From contig OZ020248.1 of NCBI GenBank assembly GCA_963971285.1, forward strand, positions 558,001 to 622,000: a DNA stretch of 64,000 nt. The letters run 5' to 3'. This DNA is from Astropecten irregularis. Taxonomy: Eukaryota > Echinodermata > Asteroidea > Paxillosida > Astropectinidae. Shown here one piece after another: positions 162 to 49,191 of this stretch. The notes beneath the pieces were generated by a model, which did not search any database, was not told the DNA's origin, and saw only the letters and a program-made list of their open reading frames with translations. A program made the translations under genes and the position numbers. Each line of letters opens with the position of its first letter. Positions within the stretch are counted from its first letter, which is position 1.

Positions 162-3100
162 CTATAGCGAAATCTGCGTGGACTTCTTCTTCTATCCCGA
201 GAATTGTGAAAATGGGGGCAGGCGTAACCTTGGCGACAAAGGCGTGGTGGCTTCTTGCACAGATCCGTCTTGTAGTTGGTCAGCACAAAATTAGTGTCTG
301 TAGTTTGAGAAGGGAAAGTGACTTAAGGGCCACGGAAGAAAAATTATAAAAATGGTAGAAAAATTGGGGTGTTTCAAAATGAGCAGCTGTCAACTGAAGA
401 CACTTGGGAGACACACGACGGCTTGAAGGAATATCTGTAAAGGATGGCAGTTCTGAAGATGAAGCATCTGTGAAAAGCTTTCAGCTGAAAGAATTATCCA
501 TTCTTTCCCAAACAGTAGACTCCGTCTTTGGTGATAACACACTTGTATTTTCCAGAAGGGAAATGACTCATAAAGCAATTCATTGAACGTAATGGAATAG
601 AGTTTGCTTTTGTCCAAATTACCGTCATCAAGGGCAAGACTTATTAATAATGTAAATAAATATTTGATTGCATCGGTGGAACAAACAACAATTATGAAAG
701 ATGTCTGCTCTTCAACATGACAAGTACTCTCATCTACAAGGCTACCTGTAATTAGTTTTCCCTCCTAGTAAAATACAGGTGCATCATTCAAATATGTCGT
801 CTTCAGGTGACTGAAAAATCATTTTAAACTTTAAAGCAGTTATTATGTACATTTAAGCTGGCCAGTACCAATCTGAGGGCCTGTTTGTTTCAGGCACGTG
901 ATCATCAGTAATCTTGCAGATTTAAGTTCCATGCAGGGTACGCTAAAATGGGATCCGAAGCAGCAGGATCACTATCGCGTGTCTGACATAAACTAAAATG
1001 CAGGCCTCTAAAAGTTGATTTACGGAATGGAAATATTTATAAATGCTTTGCTTCTGCCGAAAGATCAGCATTTCATTTCCAATGTTCACAGTTGGCAATA
1101 TTATGAAGTGAAGACTGTGTAGTTTGCTCAAAGTAAGAGGAGCTACGTAACTGAACTCGGTATGCCTTGTGTCAGACAAAATGACAGTCACAAACAAGAA
1201 AACATATCGAAACAACGATTAAAATGTGATTGAGGAGAAACAAGTAACAAGTTTTACCTCCCCAGCGCGGGTCATCTATAAATGCTGCTTTGTCCTTTTC
1301 AGATAACACAGACGTGATGGGCGATAAACCCATACCGGTGCCGTTAGAGGGCTTGAAGATGTCCGCCATAATTGGCAGGGGATCCTGCTGAGCCATAACC
1401 TCCCGGATGTCGTAGACTGGTTGTCGTAGATCGTGCGGGCCGTGGGCAAAGGCGCAGTGCGGTCCGTTCTTGACGCAATGTCCACGGGCGTCCGTCTCAT
1501 GGACGCAAGTTCCGGTCTTGTAGTAACGGAGGTGATAGCGGCGTTCAGTGTCCCCAGTTGTACGATGGAGAAATGGGCATCTGTTAAGAAAAAAGAAGGT
1601 CAAATTAACTACGATAGAATTTATATGCTCTTCCACTAAACAGCAGCAACTGTCTTCTGGGTGCTTCAAAGTTTGTGCCTGACCACTGATGGCTTGCTTA
1701 TATAGTCCTCCCTGTATAAGGTTTACTTCCTCACACTTCAATGAGTGGAGTAGTGATTTGTACTTGCTGCACTATCACAGACTTCAACTTGGACTTGCAG
1801 CTCAATTCTCATGAAGCTGGTCGCTAATAACTGCCTGGAACACAGAGTTAATTAATACCTCTAATTATTTCCATGGTGCATCACAGTACCACTAGTGCCT
1901 CCACGATGCTGTCCATGCAAACCTTCCAAATCCTAAAGTACTTTGCGGTAACTCTTTTGTGAGTATGGGGTGGCTCTGAAAAGAGCTGGTTAACTTGACG
2001 TTTCGGTCAGTATACACTGGACGTCTTCAGGAGAATGCTGCAGGTGCGAGGTGGAGACTAGTCTAGTAGTTCTGTTGCAGACCTGGTACAAAGTTCCTGC
2101 TGCTTGGTGTGTTGAATGGACTAGTAATTGGACTAAATCCTATTCATTGATCTATATGCACAGCTAGGAATGGATCTGATCACCACTTGCAATTTACATT
2201 TTACAATGTGCATGGTTTGAGGAGTAACATGTAGATGTATTCAAGCCAAGGGCCAAGGGATAGACCGCCCTCCATGCCGCAATGCCTCTTCACAGATGCT
2301 CTAACTTAAATCCATATGAGCCACAATTGTAGTGTTCTGATTTTTACAACAATCTCTTTAAAGGAATGTATTGCCTTAAAAGGAATTTATTGCAGTTCAT
2401 TACTTGTTTTGACCTTTTTAATTTCTTAATAGTTCATAGTTCATTGAAGTTTCCGCTGCGTGAGGCAGTCTGCCAGTTGGATGGGAGGTAAAACCAAGTA
2501 TGTAAAGAGTTGTGCTGGAAGAAAGAAGCAAATACATACATGTACATTGTACATTGTGTGTACAATCATACACTGTAATCCTACACAAAATGAACCTATT
2601 CTCCCAATGTCATATCAGTACCATTTTCGTGTGTATGAAAATGAAAGATTGCATACAAATAATCGCAAATATTCTCAGTGTACCAAGGTCACTTGTTTAC
2701 TTACAATCTTAAACAAGCAATTAAATGTCTGGTTTCCAAGCACAATGGTCCATTTTGTACCCTTTACATACGACTATACATGTCATTTTATCAAGTATTG
2801 ATCAAATGCATTATACACAACTCACAGACAGTATGCTTTACAGCTGTGCATGGTGGGCATTTACAGGCTAGTTCAATCAGGTCATTGGGCAAGGTGAAGT
2901 GTTCGACCACCAGGACAGCATGGGGTTTGTCGCCAGAAAGACTGAACTGGCTCATAGCAGGATTCCTTAAGGGAATAAGCCAAGTAGGTCAGGGATTGTG
3001 AAATCTTGGACCATATGCAGGGTCAAAAGCTAAGGTCAGGGATTGTGAAATCTTGGACCATATATGCAGGGTTCAGGTACAAGTTGCATTCACTTTCGTC

Positions 3101-6100
3101 ACAGCTTTGTTCATGCAACGTGGGCCCTTTTCTACTGGAACAAAATTTCATGAATCCTTTCATGATTTAATATTCCACAATTTCTTCAGTTAACGACTGT
3201 ATGCTGTGGTTTTGTCCAAGCCTAGCTGTTCCTCTTGTACGGCCGGTTGCCCATTGGTGGTTTCATTTCGAACATTGCATTTAGCACTTCCATCGACTTC
3301 TGGGCTGCCGACTGCGGGTTGAGCCACGTTCTGAGCACATCCGTTACCTTGTAAATTTACTTCGCCGATTGTGTGTCCGGCCCCGTTGCAGTTATACACA
3401 TACTCTCTTTTCGACAGAATTTTGCGTTATCCGACTGCTCAGTTGCTCTGTCGGGGACAAACTTTCATTGCTCACGCTGTTATTCTGGGACAGACATTCT
3501 GCAACCCGGCTACTGGGAATTTTGACTGACTGCTGTATTGACCGCCTCAGTTTCGTGGATTGACTTTCCGTCATCTTCTCCGGGACCTTGCATCATCCGA
3601 CTGCTGGGTTGGTCATCATTTTCTGATTGTCCTTCCGGTTCACTATGCCTCGTCCACGTCGACAAGTTCGCCCGCCAGCCCGATGGCGGGTGACTCAAAC
3701 CACAAGTGGGGGCCGCCAACCACGAGCCAAGCGGGCCAGGCCTACGTCGGTGCCTCCTACGGCACCCGTCTCTACGCCAGCGGTTCCAGTGGCGGCTAAG
3801 CGACGGGCCAGGTCTTCGACGTTGCCCCGGGCGCGATCCTCCGACACCCCGTCAGCGGTCTCCACCTCGTCTTCGAGCGTGAGTTCCGGCCTACCACCAC
3901 CTGATGTCGATGGGCCATCGATTGCACCGGACCAGCCCTGTGTATCATTGTCGCAGCCACCTAGTCTGGATCCTCCTCTTCCCGTCACGCCGGCGAACTC
4001 TAACGTGAACTGTAGTGCCGGCCCGAGCAGTGCTATGGCTAGTACTTGTGGTATTGGGGAGCCAGGTGTACTTTTTCATACAGGTATTTCTAATGTTACT
4101 AATGGTAATGGTACTAGTACTGTTCCTACACGTTGTTTTGGTGATTCCAGTGTATATGGTGGGCAGGGACACAGTTTACCGAATACTTGGGCAAGAGCCT
4201 TGGGTGTTAATTCTTCATTTGGGCCTAGTTATGCTACCAATGCCACACCTACTAGTAGTAGCACTTTTCGAGTTAATAGTAGTAGTTGTAACACTTGCCA
4301 AGTGTCTGAAGCTACGGGCGGTGGTGCCGCGGCGAGCTCGGTGTTTCCTGGGTTTAATGCAGGTACGCTGGGCTCTGCTCCCGGTGGCATTGACGCTGTG
4401 TCTGGTTATAACGCTCAACAATTTCATGGTTTTGACATACCCATGCAGAACGCCAGCGGCGGGTTGGGTAGTACGGCTTTGGCTGGGCTTACCAATCCGC
4501 CCGCTATACCACGGGCTCAATCTGGATCACTGCTGGGGGCCTATGTTCCCCAATCGCTTAAGGACAAAATTTGGGGCAACGCTTACATCGATTTGGCCCT
4601 TTTGTACGTTGATACCCCTGGGTCATTGTTGTCAAAGGCCCATCGTTCCTCTGGTGCTGAGGTTTCTCTGGTAGTGGATGGGGACAAGATGTTCCTGAGG
4701 CCGACCGTGTCCTCCCCATCCCGCCAGAGCAAGCTTGACACCTGGGAGCGATGGGTCTCTGCGTTCCATACATTCATGACGATCTATTTGGTCAAGCATC
4801 CATTTCGCGCCCCGGAACTCTTGAAGTATACCGAGATTGTTCGCATGGCATCGCTACAATTCCCAGGCATGGGCTGGCGTGCTTATGACGAGCAGTTTCG
4901 GTTGCGGCAGGAAATTTATCCTAACCGTTCTTGGGCCGACTTGGATGGGGAACTTTGGCTGACAGTAGCCGCTTCGGCGGTGTCCAGTGGTAGCCCAATG
5001 GTCGGCAGGCAGTCTGCAGGGGGGTCTCGTGCTTTTACCAGGTTGTGTTATGCATTTAATGGCGCTGGGGGTTGCAAGTTCCTTGGGTGCAAATTCATGC
5101 ACCAGTGCTCAAAATGTTCTCGCTCGGGCCATGGAGCCTCCACATGCCATATTGGGGGGCAGCGTTCTCGCCCCGGTTATGCGAAAGGCGGGGGTGCCGC
5201 AAAAGGGGCCCATTCTCAGAATCCGGCATTTTCTCCTCAAGCGCGGTCTGTGGTGGCATCTTCTGCTGCCACAGCATCAAAAGGCAATTTTCGTGCTTCC
5301 AACGCCAATTAAGTTTCATGTTTTGGCCAGTTGGCTGGAGGGTTACAGTAACGTGGGCGATGCGGCTATTCTCCGACACGGTTTTCAGTTTGGTTTTTCC
5401 CTAGGCTTCACAGGCCCACGCACCAAGCGAGATGCTGGCTGCTTAGGATCGGCGGCAGCCATGCCATTGGTTACACTTGATAAAATTGATAAAGAAATCC
5501 AAAAAGGGCGCGTTGCCGGTCCTTTCGCGCAACGCCCCCTTCCTCGTCTACAATGTTCGCCAATTGGGCTGGTGCCTAAGAAAGAGCCTGGCACCTTTCG
5601 ACTCATCCATCACCTTTCCTTCCCTGAGGGAAGCGGTGTTAATGCCTTCATTGATAAAGATAGTTGTAAGGTATCTTATGCTTCATTTGATGTCGGTACG
5701 CGGCTTGCATTGCAGGCCGGTGTTGGCGCGTGGTTAGCGAAAGCTGACATCAAGTCCGCATTCCGGCTTTTGCCGGTGTCTCCTAGGGATTACGAGCTGC
5801 TGGGGTTCCAATTTCAAGGCCAATTCTACTTCGACAAGTGCCTTCCCATGGGTTGTGCTATTTCGTGTGCCCTTTTTGAAAAATTCAGTACTTTTCTAGA
5901 ATTTCGTGTTAAGGCGGTGTCGCCTTCTTGTCTTGTTACACATTATCTTGATGATTTCCTCTTCATCGGGACATCCCGCGAATCTTGTAAGGATTATTTG
6001 GGACGTTTTGAAGGTGTTTGCAATGAGCTCGGGGTGCCTTTGGCGGGGGAAAAGACGGAGGGACCCTCACAGTGCATTTCCTATTTAGGGCTAGAAATTG

Positions 6101-9100
6101 ACACAGTGCAAGGCCAAGTGCGGGTTCCTCGCGTTAAGGTGCAAGCGCTCACGGAACGAATCCAAACAATGTTAAGTAAGCCCAAGGCAACATTGCTCCA
6201 GCTGCAGTCCTTAGTAGGGTCCTTGAACTTTGTCTGCAAAGCGGTTGCGCCAGGGCGTGCATTTTTAAGGCGCATTATTGCTCTCACTGTTGGTCTCAAG
6301 CGGCCACACCACAAAGTCCGCTTAACGCAAGGGGCGAAGCTTGATCTCCTCATGTGGCTTAAGTTTTTGCAGCATTTTAATGGCACTACGCCTTTCCTTT
6401 CTCAGTGGTGGGATACAAATACTGCCCTGGAGTTGTTCACAGATGCATCAGCTTCAATTGGTTATGGTGCTTATTTCCAGGGCAGATGGTTTCAAGGGCG
6501 CTGGTCGGTAGAGTGCTTGGCGTCTTCACCCTCCATAGCACTACTCGAATTTTACCCGGTAGTGGCGGCAATGCGCTGTTGGGCTCCTCTCTTAGCAAAC
6601 AAGAGAGTGCTTTTTCGGTCAGACAATGCTGCTGTCGTTCAGATCATCAATAAGCAATCGTCTCCATGCTTGCGAATTATGCAGTTGGTGCGGGAGCTTG
6701 TCATGCTATGCCTCAAGTATAATATACTTTTTAAGGCTGTTCACATACCAGGTTTGGAGAATGACATTGCCGATGCTTTATCTCGCTTTCAGATCAAGAG
6801 ATTCCATGCGTTAGCCCCGTCGGCTCAGCCCGTCATGACACCTTTGCCTCAACTCCCACAGTTTTAGTTGCAGCGGAGATGGATCGTCTCTTGGGCTTGG
6901 CCTTTGCTAAGAATACGCACAAGGCTTATACGTCAGGTCTTAATGCCTTTTGCCATTTTAAAGGGTGCGAACCCTCCACCTTGTCGGGCATTTCCGCTCA
7001 AAACATTGCGGAATTTATTGCATGGCTGTCACTACACAGGTACGCATCTTCCACGGTGAACACATATGTTGCCGGCGTGGGGTGCTTTTGTAAGCTGAGA
7101 GGTTGGGTCGATCCCACCAATAATTTTATTGTCTCCAAGCTTCGGGATGGTTGCAGGCGGGACGGAACCAGCAAAGATAAACGGCTACCAATTTCAATGG
7201 CCTTGTTGTCTCGCATTGTGACAGCTTTGCCCCATGTTTGTAATTCGCACTGGGACCGTGCTATGTTCAGAGCAGCTATGCTATTGGCCTTTTTTGGTTT
7301 CCTACGCGTGGGTGAGTTTACGGCTGATTCCAGTGCCGCTAATGGTAACACCGCCTTGCAGTGCTCGGACGTCTGCTTCTGTGGTGAGCCTGGCAATCCA
7401 TCAGTGATGTTGGCCATACGCAATTCCAAGACAAATCAATGTGGCCCTCCACAGTGGGTACATGTCGCTAAATTGCATAATTGCGCACTATGTCCGGTCA
7501 CTGCTTTGCACACTTACTTGCAGGCTCGTCTAATTGGGGCTGGTCCTCTTTTCTGTCATGCGCGTGGGTCTCCCCTCACAAGGTATCAGTTCACTGCTGT
7601 GCTTACAGCCGCACTGACGTTTTGCGGGGTGGACAGTGACAGCTATCGCTCCCATTCCTTTCGGATGGGTGCCGCATCCACCGCCTTTGCGTTGGGCGTG
7701 CCGGTGTCAAAGATCAAGCTTTTGGGGCGCTGGCAATCTGATGCGGTCTTTCGCTACATTCGTCCCTTCCCGCCTGTTCTACCATAACCTGTAATTGTAC
7801 CGGGTCAAATTCCTTGTTTACTTTTCTTCACAGGGGTGCATGAGGTTTGGGTAATCGGTGATTCCATCGTGCGTAGAGCAAGCCAGGATTTGAATTTACC
7901 CGCTCTGGTACATTGGAATGGGCAAGGTGGCGCCCGACTTGGTGACATTCATGGTCTGCTTCGAGATTATGCAGGTCCTGACCCATGCCTACTCATTTTG
8001 CATTTGGGTACCAATGATTTAATGGCGCATGACCTTTTCACAATGCGTCAACTCATTACCTCAAGTCTACACTGTTGTAGGGAACGGTTTCCTAAGGCCA
8101 TTATAGTTTGGTCTGACATCCTCCCCAGGATGTTTTACTTTGGGGCAACATCCCAAAAAGCAAAGGAAAGTGTCCGAAAAGCGGTCAATCGGTGGGCCAG
8201 AGGACAGTGTAGACGGCTGGGGGCCAGGGTTCTGCAACACCCCCAATTTAGTTGGTCTGATGCTACCCTGTACAGTTTTGACGGGGTACACCTTTCCAAT
8301 AAAGGGTTGTCTTTGTTCAGGGCTAACCTTCACAATTGCATTGTGGCCCTGCTGTAGCTGCGGCACTCGGTGGGTTTGTGTAATTTTCTTTGGGCGCGCT
8401 TCTCGCGTGTGGCAATTTGTGATGGGAATATTACATCAATCTTTCACTTCGGTGCCGCAGTTTGGTCAAATTGACAGGGCATACACTAATTTATTCCTCG
8501 GCTACTTCAGGTTGTTAAGTGTTCAAAAAGTGCCGAGATTTCCCTCGGACTAGTCCCGACCGCAGCTCCCAGGGGGACGCGAACACTAAATTTAATAGTT
8601 ATGGTATATGCCGGGTGATCTAAATAATGTGTACATGGTTTTATCCAATTTGTGTTTAAAAGAATTTGTATCTTGTAAAATATCCCATTGTTATATCAAA
8701 TGGAATAATGAAGTGTTAAATAGTTTCTGGTTTTAAGTCAAACCAGAGTTTGACAATGGTACCAGGTATGGGGTACAGAGTCTTGGGTACTCTGTACGGT
8801 GTATAATGGTGTTATTCGTATGTGTGTAAATCGGTATGCCCAAGGTGTTGGTATTCCGGTACCAGGTCTGTGGAACAGCGTCTTAGGTACGCTGTTGTCC
8901 CAGCTGGTTTTACCTGAGGTCTAAGGTACCTCAGGTAGTGTGTTAATAATGGTGTTATTCGTATGTGTGTAAACCGGTATGCCCAAGGTGTTGGTATTCC
9001 GGTACCAGGTCTGTGGAACAGCGTCTTAGGTACGCTGTTGTCCCAGCTGGTTTTACCTGAGGTCTAAGGTATCTCAGGTACAGGTGTGTTAATTATGTGC

Positions 9101-12100
9101 TATTCGTGCTATGTTAAAATCGGTATGCCCATGGTTTGGTATTCCGGTAGTTGTGTTTTTCAAGCACTAAAATAAATGCTACGAGCTGTGGCCATAAGCA
9201 TACTTGCTGACGTGTTGGGTGACTTATATTGTGTGTTTGAGTATAAGTCATTTTATCAAGTATTGATCAAATGCATTATACACAACTCACAGACAGTATG
9301 CTTTACAGCTGTGCATGGTGGGCATTTACAGGCTAGTTCAATCAGGTCATTGGGCAAGGTGAAGTGTTCGACCACCAGGACAGCATGGGGTTTGTCGCCA
9401 GAAAGACTGAACTGGCTCATAGCAGGATTCCTTAAGGGAATAAGCCAAGTAGGTCAGGGATTGTGAAATCTTGGACCATATGCAGGGTCAAAAGCTAAGG
9501 TCAGGGATTGTGAAATCTTGGACCATATATGCAGGGTTCAGGTACAAGTTGCATTCACTTTCGTCACAGCTTTGTTCATGCAACGTGGGCCCTTTTCTAC
9601 TGGAACAAAATTTCATCCCACCTCCGCCCCATCTGGTTTTTCCTCCCTCTGTCAAGTTCAATCACGCTGTGGGCAATTTGTGATGGGAATATTACATCAA
9701 TCTTTCACTTCGGTGCCGCAGTTTGGTCAAATTGACAGGGCATACACTAATTTATTCCTCGGCTACTTCAGGTTGTTAAGTGTTCAAAAAGTGCCGAGAT
9801 TTCCCTCGGACTAGTCCCGACCGCAGCTCCCAGGGGGACGCGAACACTAAATTTAATAGTTATGGTATATGCCGGGTGATCTAAATAATGTGTACATGGT
9901 TTTATCCAATTTGTGTTTAAAAGAATTTGTATCTTGTAAAATATCCCATTGTTATATCAAATGGAATAATGAAGTGTTAAATAGTTTCTGGTTTTAAGTC
10001 AAACCAGAGTTTGACAATGGTACCAGGTATGGGGTACAGAGTCTTGGGTACTCTGTACGGTGTATAATGGTGTTATTCGTATGTGTGTAAATCGGTATGC
10101 CCAAGGTGTTGGTATTCCGGTACCAGGTCTGTGGAACAGCGTCTTAGGTACGCTGTTGTCCCAGCTGGTTTTACCTGAGGTCTAAGGTACCTCAGGTAGT
10201 GTGTTAATAATGGTGTTATTCGTATGTGTGTAAACCGGTATGCCCAAGGTGTTGGTATTCCGGTACCAGGTCTGTGGAACAGCGTCTTAGGTACGCTGTT
10301 GTCCCAGCTGGTTTTACCTGAGGTCTAAGGTATCTCAGGTACAGGTGTGTTAATTATGTGCTATTCGTGCTATGTTAAAATCGGTATGCCCATGGTTTGG
10401 TATTCCGGTAGTTGTGTTTTTCAAGCACTAAAATAAATGCTACGAGCTGTGGCCATAAGCATACTTGCTGACGTGTTGGGTGACTTATATTGTGTGTTTG
10501 AGTATAATGTGTGCATGTATACAATAGAACTGGCAGAGTATATCAGCTGCTTCGTAGTATTGACATTATTTGGTATAACTCACATTTTATATGTTGAAGC
10601 CATACACTATACAGGCTTCCAATGCTGAACATTGACATTTGTCCCAAGAAGCAATCAAATCATTTTTTTTTTATTTAGATCATAATCATCATACCATTCA
10701 ATGAAAATTTATTGTTCATCTTTGTAGTCAGATCTCAAAACAGCAATTACCGTGTATAAAATATGGCTTTTGGCATCCCAAATCAAACTTAATTGACATA
10801 GCATGTAATGTATCAAGTCATCCATCATAGAGCTGAACGGTTTGAGTGGTGGGGCACTAGTACATGACATGTTTAGCTTTAGTTCTGACTGGCACCATAA
10901 TAATAGTTATTTGACAACAGAGAGGCCCCAGCACAGGGTTGGAAATCTTACATGTAGTCATGGTAGTTGGGGCAACACTGGTAATGGGAGACTTGAAAAC
11001 CGGTCTTCAAGTCAACAGCGCACGCCCACGTGCACACACAACACGCGCATGCTCACAATTGCGTGCGCGTGCGCTGTTGACTTGAAGACCGGTTCTCAAA
11101 ATTCTCCCATTATGTATTCCATAGGCCTATATCTTTGATCCCCCAAATCCATTTTGATGAAACGTACATATTGTAAGGTAGGCCTAACATTTAGTCAGTT
11201 CCTTTCTTTAATTTCCTTAATTGTCAATCTTCGTCATTGCAAATTAAAGGAAAACTTTTCTCCCACAAAACAAAAAATGAGATACATGTACATGTACTGT
11301 ATTATGTGGACATCAATTCAGACCAATAAGAATAATACATCTTTTTGTACCTGCCAGTCCTGCTACATTGTTCACCTACATGTATACTCTAAAGTCATTT
11401 TGTTTTGGCTGATAAAATTGTACACGTACTCTAAAGCCTATTAAAAGCAACACTGTTTGAAATAAATACCATTTCCCTCTATTCTTTTCCAATGCTTAGC
11501 TATTAAAGTTTATATTGCACTTCCTAAGTTCCTAGCAGCCATTACAAGTTGATATTTCACTACACCTACATGTAGATAGACTTAGACATACAGTATGTGT
11601 GACATCAAATATCCCTATATACACTGTGTTTAAAATAATTTCTTTTTCAAACAGCTATCTGGGGAAATATCTGAGACTGAAATATGTTTGGGTCACGTGA
11701 TGATTTGGGGGAAGACTTGGCAAAGGGCGTAAGGTGACATTACTGGCAAGTGGTTTACTCTAACCAAGGGGAAGTGCAGACATACAACTTATCTGTACAG
11801 GATCAGAAGGTTAATATCAACAAAACTTTAGTACTTGTTACAATTCTGATGATACGCTTATTTAAGACAAGACACACATGAAACCAATACGATTATTACT
11901 TCCTCATCCTAAGTCTGATATTCATCGTCCCCACAAAACTCCACAAAACTCTGGTTTTAATCCGAGTATGAAATGTTGACCTACTTCCAATGAATGCACA
12001 TGAACAAACCAGCATCAAATAATTTCACTTTTGGTTTAGTACCTTTAAAAGCTGAGTTATTTTTGCCACAGGTGAACTAAAATAAACATGTTCTTGGAAG

Positions 12101-21800: not shown

Positions 21801-23672
21801 GCAATGCCCGAGGGCACCAAAGCAATGATCAAGGGGACCAGGGCGATTTTGTTCAGTTGGCACTAGGAAGCTCATGCCCTGGGCACCAAGGCCAAGGGCA
21901 CCAAGGCAATAACCAAAGGTACCAAGGCGATTACTATAGGGTACCAAGGCAATAACCAAAGGCACCAAGGCGATTACTATAGGGCACCAAGGCAATAACC
22001 AAAGGTACCAAGGCGATTACTATAGGGCACCAAGGCAATAACCAAAGGCACCAAGGCGATTACTATAGGGCACCAAGGCAATAACCAAAGGTACCAAGGT
22101 GATTACTATAGGGCACCAAGGCAATAACATGGGGCACAAAGGCAATGACCAGGGACACCAATGTGATATTTTAGTTGCCACTGTACGTGAAGTTCAAGCC
22201 CTGGGCATCTTTGATACCAATTGTCATCACTCCGCCAACTTTAATACAACATTGAAATTTTTCTTTGTGTCTTTTTCTCCTTGCATGTAATTCATTGTGA
22301 AGATGTCCAAGCATACAGACTTAATACAAGGCGAATGTCCTGCTACCGTCGTGCCATGTACATACCAAGAAATAGGATGCGATGCTAAGGTAAGAATTCT
22401 TACGATTGCATTATTTCCTTCTGAATGGGAAAAGACACATCTGTGAAAGTTTTAACTTCCTAAGGTGCGTAAAAAATAGCCTGAAAAACCTGCCCTAGTG
22501 AGCACCATCCAAGCAACTCGAAGCCCCCCTTTTTCAGTTAGATACTCACATTGTACACTTCAACCTTTTTTTTGGTACAGATTAAGCGCAGTGAATTATC
22601 AGCCCACCACAAGGGGGCCACGGCCGACCACATGAAGCTCCTCATGACCCAGGTCACTACCCAGAAGGCCTTGCTGCAAACGCAAAGCATCTCTCAGACT
22701 GAGAGCAGCAGAACGTGCCATCGGCTCTTGTCTCAAATGGAGGAGATGAAAAGGTAAATGATTTCTTCCGTTTGGACGTTTTTCCTTGGGGGTGGGGGGT
22801 GGGGGGCCTGACAACGACAAATCAGATTGTAAAAAAGTCAGATTGTAATTACGGTAATCCTTGACAATTTAATGGTCTTCTGAACAATATCTTACAGTGA
22901 ACTATATATCTTTTGTAATAACAAATGATGAATATTAAATATTAATTTTATATTCATGATTAATTGCGGTACCAGCCGCGATATTGGATTCGATTTACCC
23001 CGCTGACCCCAGCTAGCTCTGTGGCCTAGCGGTATGGCATCTGCACTTATTAAGTAGGAGGTCGTGGGTTCGAATCTCACCCATATTCATTCTCTCAGCA
23101 CCAACTTCTAATATCCATGATTTTCAATATTTACCAACAGAAGTCTCATTGAGAAAGACCGGCTCCTAAACCAGCAAGTTGAAAGGATCAGCTACTTGGA
23201 GAACACCAACCACAGCGGACGTCTGCACTGGAAAATTGACCTCGATGCTCACAGCAAAGGCAGCAGTACCACAACGCGGTTTCTCAGTCCGCCATTCTAC
23301 ACCAGCCGGCCCGGCTACAAGCTGCGAGCCTGTCTGGAGATCGACGGCCATGCCACACGCAACACCACTTTCACTTCGCTGTTCATTGTGCTGCGGCCTG
23401 GTGAATTCGACGACAGGTTACACTTCCCGTTTAACGCCAAATGCGGTGTGACGTTGTTTGACCAGTGCGAGAATCCGCACGGTCGCTCGGACTTTGTGAC
23501 CTCAATCACCTGCAGTAACATGCCCCGTGCTCACGAGGGGGACATTCGGGACCAGTTCAGGGGTCGTCTTAGGTTCATGCAGACTGATGATTTGATTAAC
23601 GGTTGTTTCTGCAGTGGGGGTATGCTCTTCATGCAGATTGATGTTGATGTGTCTCGCTCACTCAAAATCTGA
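18816..23672 (+). CDS. TRAF6: TRAF6, complete, eight coding exons, 464 aa
   Basis: TRAF6 is a RING-type E3 adaptor that builds K63-linked ubiquitin chains downstream of IL-1/Toll-like receptors and some TNF receptors. Coding exons: 18816-19018, 19541-19598, 20174-20278, 20714-20872, 21608-21685, 22303-22389, 22581-22753, 23141-23672; phases join throughout (1395 nt with stop). The RING has C39, C42, C54, H56, C59, C62, C75 and D78, including the CPVD ending seen in TRAF6. Cys/His-rich TRAF zinc fingers follow (exons 3-7, e.g. [31 protein letters not shown]). A coiled coil spans roughly 255-310 and a C-terminal MATH/TRAF-C domain about 314-458 ([18 protein letters not shown]). The lead sequence [19 protein letters not shown] is nearly the vertebrate TRAF6 sequence, which makes this assignment firmer than other TRAFs. 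Slightly shorter than human (522 aa), with a shorter tail after the MATH domain. Confidence 0.94.
19212..19382. mobile_element. Foldback element with GAAACGTC hairpin, copy 1 (TRAF6 intron 1)
   Basis: Terminal inverted repeats of about 42 bp (19212-19253 against 19340-19382; inner words GTATAACACTCTTT and AAAGAGTGTTATAC) enclose a core with GACCAGAGCACACTGATCGAAACGTC and a GGTCCTTCTCAGGACC hairpin. Related copies: 38220-38372 and 57147-57389. Confidence 0.65.
21031..21280. mobile_element. GGCTCC-bearing foldback MITE, copy 1 (TRAF6 intron 4)
   Basis: The left end (...CTCAAAGCTTGGCTCC) is an imperfect inverted repeat of the right end (GGAGCCAAACTTTGCAAAGG). The body has a short GGCTCC/CAGCTC run, then CATTTCGTAAATCCATTCTA and a segment ending in a TATATTTTCATCATAT-like word, shared with copies at 40962-41310 and 46698-46988. 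Confidence 0.65.
21741..22170 (+). repeat. 21-bp minisatellite in TRAF6 intron 5
   Basis: About 20 imperfect copies of a 21-bp unit of the form GGGCACCAAGGCAATGACCAA, partly in a 42-bp higher-order register in which CAAGGCAATAACC alternates with CAAGGCGATTACTATAG. The reverse complement of the unit is the repeat at 36842-37160 in TOP3A. Because 21 is a multiple of 3, the array opens long spurious frames. Confidence 0.85.
23012..23085 (+). repeat. tRNA-derived SINE-like fragment in TRAF6 intron 7
   Basis: Contains a tRNA-type A-box region (TGGCCTAGCGGTATGG) and a B-box (GGGTTCGAATC) at normal spacing, but no pairing acceptor stem, so a tRNA-like SINE head rather than a gene. Confidence 0.5.

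Positions 23673-34426: not shown

Positions 34427-49191
<14,765 letters not shown>

Follow-up and report, generated by a model that had tools for sequence, protein, structure and literature searches.

The nearest known kind of the element described here is presumably the vertebrate Ngaro retrotransposon of the DrNgaro1 type. To our knowledge, there is no laboratory demonstration of Ngaro transposition, and the replication model rests on anatomy. Statements on published elements refer to the relevant passages of the cited papers. The Xenopus Ngaro DIRS-53_XT, for instance, combines split direct repeats and open reading frames (ORFs) in the order A1-ORFs-B1-A2-B2, with reverse transcriptase (RT) and RNase H, a tyrosine recombinase, and an SGNH hydrolase after the recombinase (PMC9210276). 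A circle model for split-repeat elements, which expects A and B to be homogenised, is touched on in work on VIPER (PMC6681497). Here, a stretch of 64,000 nucleotides from Astropecten irregularis was analysed as a whole and is called the window (contig OZ020248.1 of assembly GCA_963971285.1; G000:C11:558001-622000). It is part of a 475.7-Mb genome in 168 contigs. Positions 2782..10507 of the window are very probably a full-length, recently inserted Ngaro retrotransposon of the order DIRS. Its 55-bp spacer between A2 and B2 carries a conserved signal at the A2/spacer border, which may guide copying.

Repeat structure and classification

The repeat sizes and limits given by an initial annotation of the window (A 370 bp, B 836 bp, B1 abutting A2, a 55-bp segment) proved exact in base-by-base alignment. 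A1 and A2 agree at 370/370 bases, the maximal exact match starting at 2782 and 9247, and B1 and B2 at 836/836 (8411 and 9672). B1 runs to 9246 and is followed at 9247 by A2, the gap between A2 and B2 covers 9617-9671, and the B1/A2 junction has the same sequence as the element end joined to the element start (20 + 20 bases compared). The 1206 repeated bases contain no mismatch, which is far beyond chance. Several differences between repeat copies, named beforehand as an argument against recent activity, are thus absent. Within A1, self-comparison revealed a duplication with a 47-bp period (2986-3023 / 3033-3072).

The features expected of Ngaro were found together. The element has split direct repeats in the order A1 - ORFs - B1 A2 - B2, an RT with RNase H (the latter weak in Pfam), and a tyrosine recombinase with the R-K-HxxR-W-Y residues in place of a DDE integrase. 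An SGNH hydrolase follows the recombinase, as in some animal members, and exact empty sites in two relatives indicate that no target-site duplication is made. Both-strand self-comparison at E 1e-3 gave only direct repeats inside the element and no inverted terminal repeats; internal complementary regions, a DIRS1 feature, were looked for only through this comparison. Neither a methyltransferase nor a DDE integrase turned up when the four frames were compared with Pfam at E up to 1, and the pair of end LTRs and the DDE integrase of long terminal repeat (LTR) retrotransposons were not found.

RT and RNase H occur in DIRS1-like, PAT-like and LTR elements alike, and to that extent the locus would suit any of them. 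PAT elements also have split direct repeats (PMC3266345). An assignment to one of these groups instead of Ngaro is very improbable, given the lack of inverted terminal repeats at E 1e-3 or better, the Pfam matches without methyltransferase or DDE integrase, and the hydrolase after the recombinase, as in amphibian Ngaro (PMC9210276). One point counts against the Ngaro assignment: the Phage_integrase match of the recombinase lies under the curated cut-off of the model. The features are collected in Table 1.

Table 1 Features of the Ngaro element, in window positions
Feature	Position	Strand	Evidence
A1, left terminal repeat	2782..3151	+	370/370 identical to A2
Gag-like frame	3645..5312	+	ATG at 3645, frame open from 3627; gag by position only
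RT/RNase H frame	4969..6867	+	RVT_1 E 2.6e-16; YLDD in translation
Tyrosine recombinase frame	6765..7787	+	First ATG 6879, stop TAA 7785-7787; Phage_integrase 4.9e-5
SGNH/GDSL hydrolase frame	7788..8357	+	Lipase_GDSL_2 1.9e-10; in the frame of the recombinase; no ATG before GDS
P motif, GC-rich, possibly hairpin-forming (tentative)	8389..8410	+	Alignment; just before B1
B1	8411..9246	+	836/836 identical to B2
A2, abutting B1	9247..9616	+	B1/A2 equals the joined element ends
Spacer A2/B2, unique, 55 bp	9617..9671	+	Repeat comparison; spacers in other families
Q tract CCCACCTCCGCCCC	9617..9630	+	Four C runs; G-rich on the opposite strand
B2, right terminal repeat	9672..10507	+	836/836 identical to B1
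AATAAA, likely poly(A) signal	10432..10437	+	Starts 76 bp before the element end; also in B1

Coding capacity

Four uninterrupted frames had been claimed, and all are open from stop to stop (gag-like 3627-5312, RT/RNase H 4969-6867, recombinase 6765-7787, hydrolase 7788-8357). The window hydrolase frame follows directly on the in-frame recombinase TAA, and no ATG stands ahead of the GDS motif in the window or in L047-L051. Four open frames are therefore not four independently translatable genes. In L047-L051, stops or frame changes lie between recombinase and hydrolase. A GT-AG intron would join the two in-frame in L047, L048, L049 and L051 (two candidates each in L048 and L051), and a GC-AG candidate was read by eye in L050. 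For the window, the sole options would be an AT-AC intron and stop readthrough, and the AC end of the intron candidate, judged by eye, is not kept in two defective relatives. Joining by a short intron or readthrough is a lead; such joins may also occur by chance.

The catalytic residues announced for all enzymes were largely recovered. By eye, the RT has YLDD, the recombinase R, K, HSFR, W and Y, and the hydrolase GDS, GTND and DGVH, motifs with presumed catalytic roles. The acidic residues of RNase H appear present, the Pfam matches being weak (E 0.041 and 0.055). The gag-like frame has no meaningful Pfam match. Counted from the ATG at 6879, the recombinase residues R143, K184, H259xxR262, W285 and Y293 are invariant in an alignment of six families. 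An AlphaFold model of the recombinase from six sequences (mean pLDDT 76.7, pTM 0.61) has Cre as its best structural match (Foldseek E 8.4e-11, probability 1.00). The match has a TM of about 0.5 and an rmsd of about 11, so the two domains would be placed otherwise than in Cre. By sequence, the recombinase gave only two weak matches in the PDB (E 0.022 and 0.027). A search for RNA families and ribozymes in the element returned one chance-level match (E 4.9), and no RT relatives were found among viral contigs.

Age and other copies in the genome

A genome search, as proposed by the initial annotation, found a second full-length copy 4 Mb away on the minus strand (C11:4564115-4571840). It is 7726 bp long and differs by 5 substitutions, none of them frame-breaking: four lie in gag (three residue-changing), one is silent in the recombinase, and none is in A or B. 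Its flanks are unrelated to those of the window copy and begin exactly at the element ends, so it inserted independently and did not arise by segmental duplication. For the 1206 repeated bases of the window copy, which show 0 differences, the rule of three puts the 95% upper bound of repeat divergence at about 0.25%. These identities support a recent insertion of the window copy, and the annotation's claims of Ngaro identity, intactness and recency hold. The element may still be active, as the annotation supposed.

Alternatively, the repeats of a Ngaro element could be identical through gene conversion between copies or assembly collapse. Two near-identical copies on one contig, 4 Mb apart, would suit this explanation. 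It is highly unlikely, as 5 sites distinguish these copies and their flanks are entirely unlike from the exact element ends onwards, and as A and B of other genomic copies differ by several per cent, so that no genome-wide homogenisation is seen.

Frame-breaking changes in most genomic copies had also been named as an argument against recent activity. Among the listed matches, three family copies hold an RT, of which two are open; the third (C14:11226852 onwards) has one TGA and one TAA in the RT match and ends within B1. Over all family places, most are defective, being partial or non-autonomous, and those read besides the two intact copies are older or defective. This argues against a large active family and not against recent movement of the window copy. 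Two further copies, C21:9188673-9196450 (L031) and C14:10787324-10793369 (L033), keep the ends, the last 35-38 recombinase residues and the hydrolase region, and have a common interior without RT or long element frames. They appear to be a non-autonomous companion of the window family. The shared interior of roughly 3.9 kb stands where gag, RT and the greater part of the recombinase would be; L031 has retained the ends. Furthermore, C14:10298042-10299350 is a solo A-spacer-B of the window family, and C9:17425625-17426085 consists of A plus the last 90 bp of B. The RT protein search (97 of 620 candidates scored) gave at least 100 matches including the window family; the others are 47-69% identical, many of them without stops.

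Sequences related to the A repeat also occur outside Ngaro copies. Arrays of its 47-bp unit, with dozens of overlapping matches each, lie at L035 and L036 (G000:C12:9265067-9267602 and 9307029-9308847), with B fragments nearby; this minisatellite seems to have grown out of the Ngaro repeat. A dispersed repeat of at least 4 kb (L039-L043), with long matches 92-96% alike between its copies, shares 207 and 57 bp with A, at 86-88% and 98%.

Joint evolution of the repeats and insertion sites

That the repeats are restored at replication had been stated from the literature, and the comparison of the window copy with the C21 copy agrees with it. The two differ at 12 places in A, including two indels, between positions 82 and 344 of 370, and 12/12 of these differences are common to A1 and A2 within each copy. 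B differs at many places, including a long insertion, and within the C21 copy a lone single-base indel separates B1 from B2. The shared A changes and matching B1 and B2 indicate that copying homogenises A and B along most of their length or all of it, a result based on this one pair of copies.

Insertion sites point to an exact reaction. The C21 copy sits in a satellite of 86-88-bp units. Among the 18 other units listed, the empty site reads ACAAAATAA/TGCAGG (the slash marks the insertion point) in 16 and is a one-base variant in two. L047 sits in another satellite, in which two units match the joined flanks as TTTAC/CTACTTG. In both cases, target bases were neither duplicated nor lost. The end of the target is similar to that of the element itself, TATAA. 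The site of the window copy is TATACAT/TGTGTG, with flanks that have no repeat at their ends. A paralogous empty site was not found for this copy, as each flank matches only itself across the genome.

A conserved tract at the A2/spacer border

A spacer between A2 and B2 is a general feature of the Ngaro families in this genome. It measures 77 bp in L044, 65 bp in L047, 85 bp in L050, 68 bp in L051 and 207 bp in L053. In L048, where the A1 copy is absent from the locus, it would be 29 bp if A2 ends at Q, the tract with which the window spacer opens. The 55-bp segment had been called a further structural detail; its presence was right, and it is more than a detail, as Q is conserved across families. 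A four-C-run tract lies near the spacer start in 8/8 families read, the A2 end being not independently fixed in two of them, and the 8-mer CCACCTCC lies no more than 30 bp from the spacer start in 7/8. It is found in the first 60 bases after A2 in the five families with an A2 end aligned to A1 (window, L044, L047, L050, L051), and likewise in L048 and L053. The eighth family, L052, lacks the 8-mer and has CCCACCCACCCTCC as the only four-C-run tract in the 2200 bases read. In L049, the locus read contains a single B and lacks a second A, so this family is outside the test.

In a shuffle control with the five spacers, a 6-mer common to all appeared in 0/2000 shuffles and a 5-mer in 43. Elsewhere, the longest word common to the five families is 3 bases after A1, 4 before B2 and 4 before B1. 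In L053, three A1 matches stop at query base 325 or 326, and Q begins at 327. The four-C-run pattern occurs at Q only in the C21 copy, L044, L045, L048 and L050, and also at one or two other places in the window element, L047 and L051. Genome-wide, CCCACCTCCRCCCC has 77 occurrences, against 35 for the reversed pattern. Of the 1980 places given by the pattern search behind the Q variants and the tandem arrays described below, the first 100 are covered; all of these lie on contig C1.

RNA ends and the P motif

In 7/7 families, the likely poly(A) signal AATAAA starts 74-109 bp upstream of the B end (76 bp in the window, 109 and 99 in L044, 80 in L047, 74 in L050, 102 in L051, 84 in L048 and 88 in L053). 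In joint shuffles of the first five families, 0/2000 had AATAAA in the last 115 bp of all five, and none was found in A in the five families checked. Because a standard element has a single spacer, the RNA must extend beyond it. Its end is then probably in the B2 tail, and B1 must supply the part of the tail that is missing. Since B1 also carries AATAAA, transcription must read through the signal there.

Before B1, a segment termed P (TTGGGGCGCGC...GCGTGTGGCA) aligns in 7 sequences from 6 families, with 18 invariant columns, 6 of them inside B1. In this alignment the C21 row is offset; with gaps, L048 and L051 align, and L044 is left out. P is weaker than Q and is treated as tentative. RNA pairing between P and Q that would loop out B1-A2 was tried as an explanation and is not supported overall. 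In 4/6 families, 53-76% of 300 shuffles of P give a duplex as good as the family's own, L044 (3.7%) and L051 (2%) doing better, and own-family pairs are in general no better than cross-family pairs.

A probable copying cycle and its possible limits

The anatomy suggests a probable copying cycle. The RNA would start somewhere in A1 and run through the frames, B1, A2 and the spacer to the tail of B2, ending after AATAAA, as the conserved signal and the single spacer suggest. During reverse transcription, the internal B1-A2 block would be the template from which the outer parts, the A1 head and the B2 tail, are restored. We further propose that the limits of this block are set by signals present at the internal copy only, namely P before B1 and the C-rich Q after A2, analogous to the strong-stop DNA of LTR elements, which is bounded by priming sites. 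A circle would then close with a B/A junction equal to B1/A2; the identity of the junction was observed, and the circle is taken from the published model. The tyrosine recombinase would recombine this junction with a short AT-rich target, with no target duplication or loss.

A more far-reaching reading, in which Ngaro is copied by an LTR-like strong-stop logic, is doubtful: the B1-A2 block would be the true equivalent of an LTR, P the plus-strand start and Q a quadruplex-prone stop or priming tract, the block would be sent to both ends, and misrouting or recombination at the B/A junction would yield A-spacer-B circles, seen as solo copies and tandem arrays. It would account for the match of B2 to B1 from the very first base and of A1 to A2 up to the very last, for the single occurrence of the short spacer, and for the need of the RNA to end in B2.

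Several points weigh against the cycle and its proposed signals. The evidence is anatomical. The shuffles overstate independence because the families share ancestry. In L050, the Q tract starts 24 bp beyond the A2 end. Of 100 listed RT places, the first 95 were entered for the Q test, and the exact 14-base Q stands on the same strand 3.87-4.52 kb downstream in 14 of them; 81 are without exact Q in reach, one of these having Q on the other strand within 9 kb. Families with other Q variants make up part of these 81. An ordinary tRNA primer site starts with TGG, and Q does not. As for P, an ungapped scan (up to 8 mismatches) detects the motif in four families (window, L047, L049, L050) and misses it in L044/L045, L048 and L051. 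Short hairpins are predicted beside B1 in several families and are not the best fold in every one, and the words shared before B1 reach 4 bases, or 5 without L044.

The spacer and Q might instead serve transcription or packaging, as a GC-box or KLF-like promoter site, a pause site or a packaging signal, and not reverse transcription. Q resembles GC-box sequences, and the four short G runs on its G-rich opposite strand are a candidate quadruplex. This is a serious possibility, somewhat less likely than not. A role at the boundary of the copied block fits better with the position of Q exactly at the limit of the duplicated block in the window, L044, L047, L051 and L053, and with its absence from the matching end of A1.

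Several families with repeats 99.6-100% identical in one genome make the anatomy comparable across families. Joint repeat evolution, exact insertion, the poly(A) signal and the A2/spacer signal turn the replication model into mappable ends, i.e., RNA 5' and 3' ends, strong-stop ends and the circle junction.

Solo copies and tandem arrays

Shorter forms of Ngaro are found in several families. Structural classes come from coordinates; letters were inspected only in L050, L051 and a portion of the five-unit L053 array. For the L050 family, 40 of 101 candidates were scored, so that a missing part may be unscored; for L051 37/37 and for L053 40 of 57 were scored. The L050 family has at least six solo A-spacer-B copies (C4:8566, C1:13535851, C30:3396653, C30:3861893, C12:2865529, C22:15338021) and at least two A-ORFs-B copies (C8:13519370-13525921, C1:12411609-12418105). 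It also has an array of three A-spacer-B units behind B1, together with A1 and RT (C1:12766634-12770899). In the L051 family, three solo copies (C19:7655785, C29:7051757, C11:18468340) and four A-ORFs-B copies (C1:12897121, C18:14456542, C8:19134142, C10:4811866) were found. The L053 family has at least one solo copy (C1:13950333) and two arrays. One array places five units behind a complete element (C1:11139600-11146062), and the other comprises three units and no RT (C23:4596132-4600439). Its array units are listed at 100% identity.

These forms probably, if by no large measure, arise only after insertion, by homologous recombination between direct repeats. A1 x A2 would give A-spacer-B, B1 x B2 would give A-ORFs-B, and unequal B1 x B2 would give arrays; all three products were found, and on these sequences direct-repeat recombination would explain all structural classes. 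Isolated AB repeats of Cafeteria have been suggested to come from recombination of 5' and 3' repeats (PMC8547959). Near-identical array units could equally result from template switching or from insertion of an A-spacer-B circle, and recombination itself is nowhere contradicted.

Other features of the window

Immediately to the right of the element lies an imperfect palindrome of 131 bp and 78% (10982-11112). Two adjoining tandem arrays with periods of 109 and 21 bp, read from match offsets, occupy 35883-37197; the 21-bp array resembles, reversed, an array at 21892-22161. A host gene exon at 41421-42056 is type IA topoisomerase-like (Topoisom_bac 5.3e-17) and presumably belongs to TOP3.

Comparison with known systems

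DIRS1-like elements share the tyrosine recombinase with the window element, and their model has a circle intermediate and no target duplication; they differ in having inverted terminal repeats and a methyltransferase domain, neither of which was found here (PMC3266345). The VIPER elements of kinetoplastids have split direct repeats in the same order, and their 100% repeat identity was taken as a sign of recent activity; they belong to another lineage and are likened by description, not by sequence (PMC6681497). The Ngaro of Cafeteria burkhardae has the same repeat order, and its isolated AB repeats were likened to solo LTRs, as here (PMC8547959). The word hydrolase is absent from the main text of that paper.

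Neither the spacer signal nor tandem A-spacer-B arrays are mentioned in the Ngaro-related passages of PMC8547959, PMC9210276, PMC3783388, PMC2632668, PMC6681497 and PMC3266345; the founding papers of Goodwin and Poulter lie outside this scope. The passages on vertebrate Ngaro (PMC9210276) do not mention the spacer with its C-rich tract or a possible intron before the hydrolase. Apart from these details, no difference in kind from vertebrate Ngaro was found in a comparison by description, not by alignment to reference sequences. The spacer signal is a new detail of an element that is itself of a known kind.

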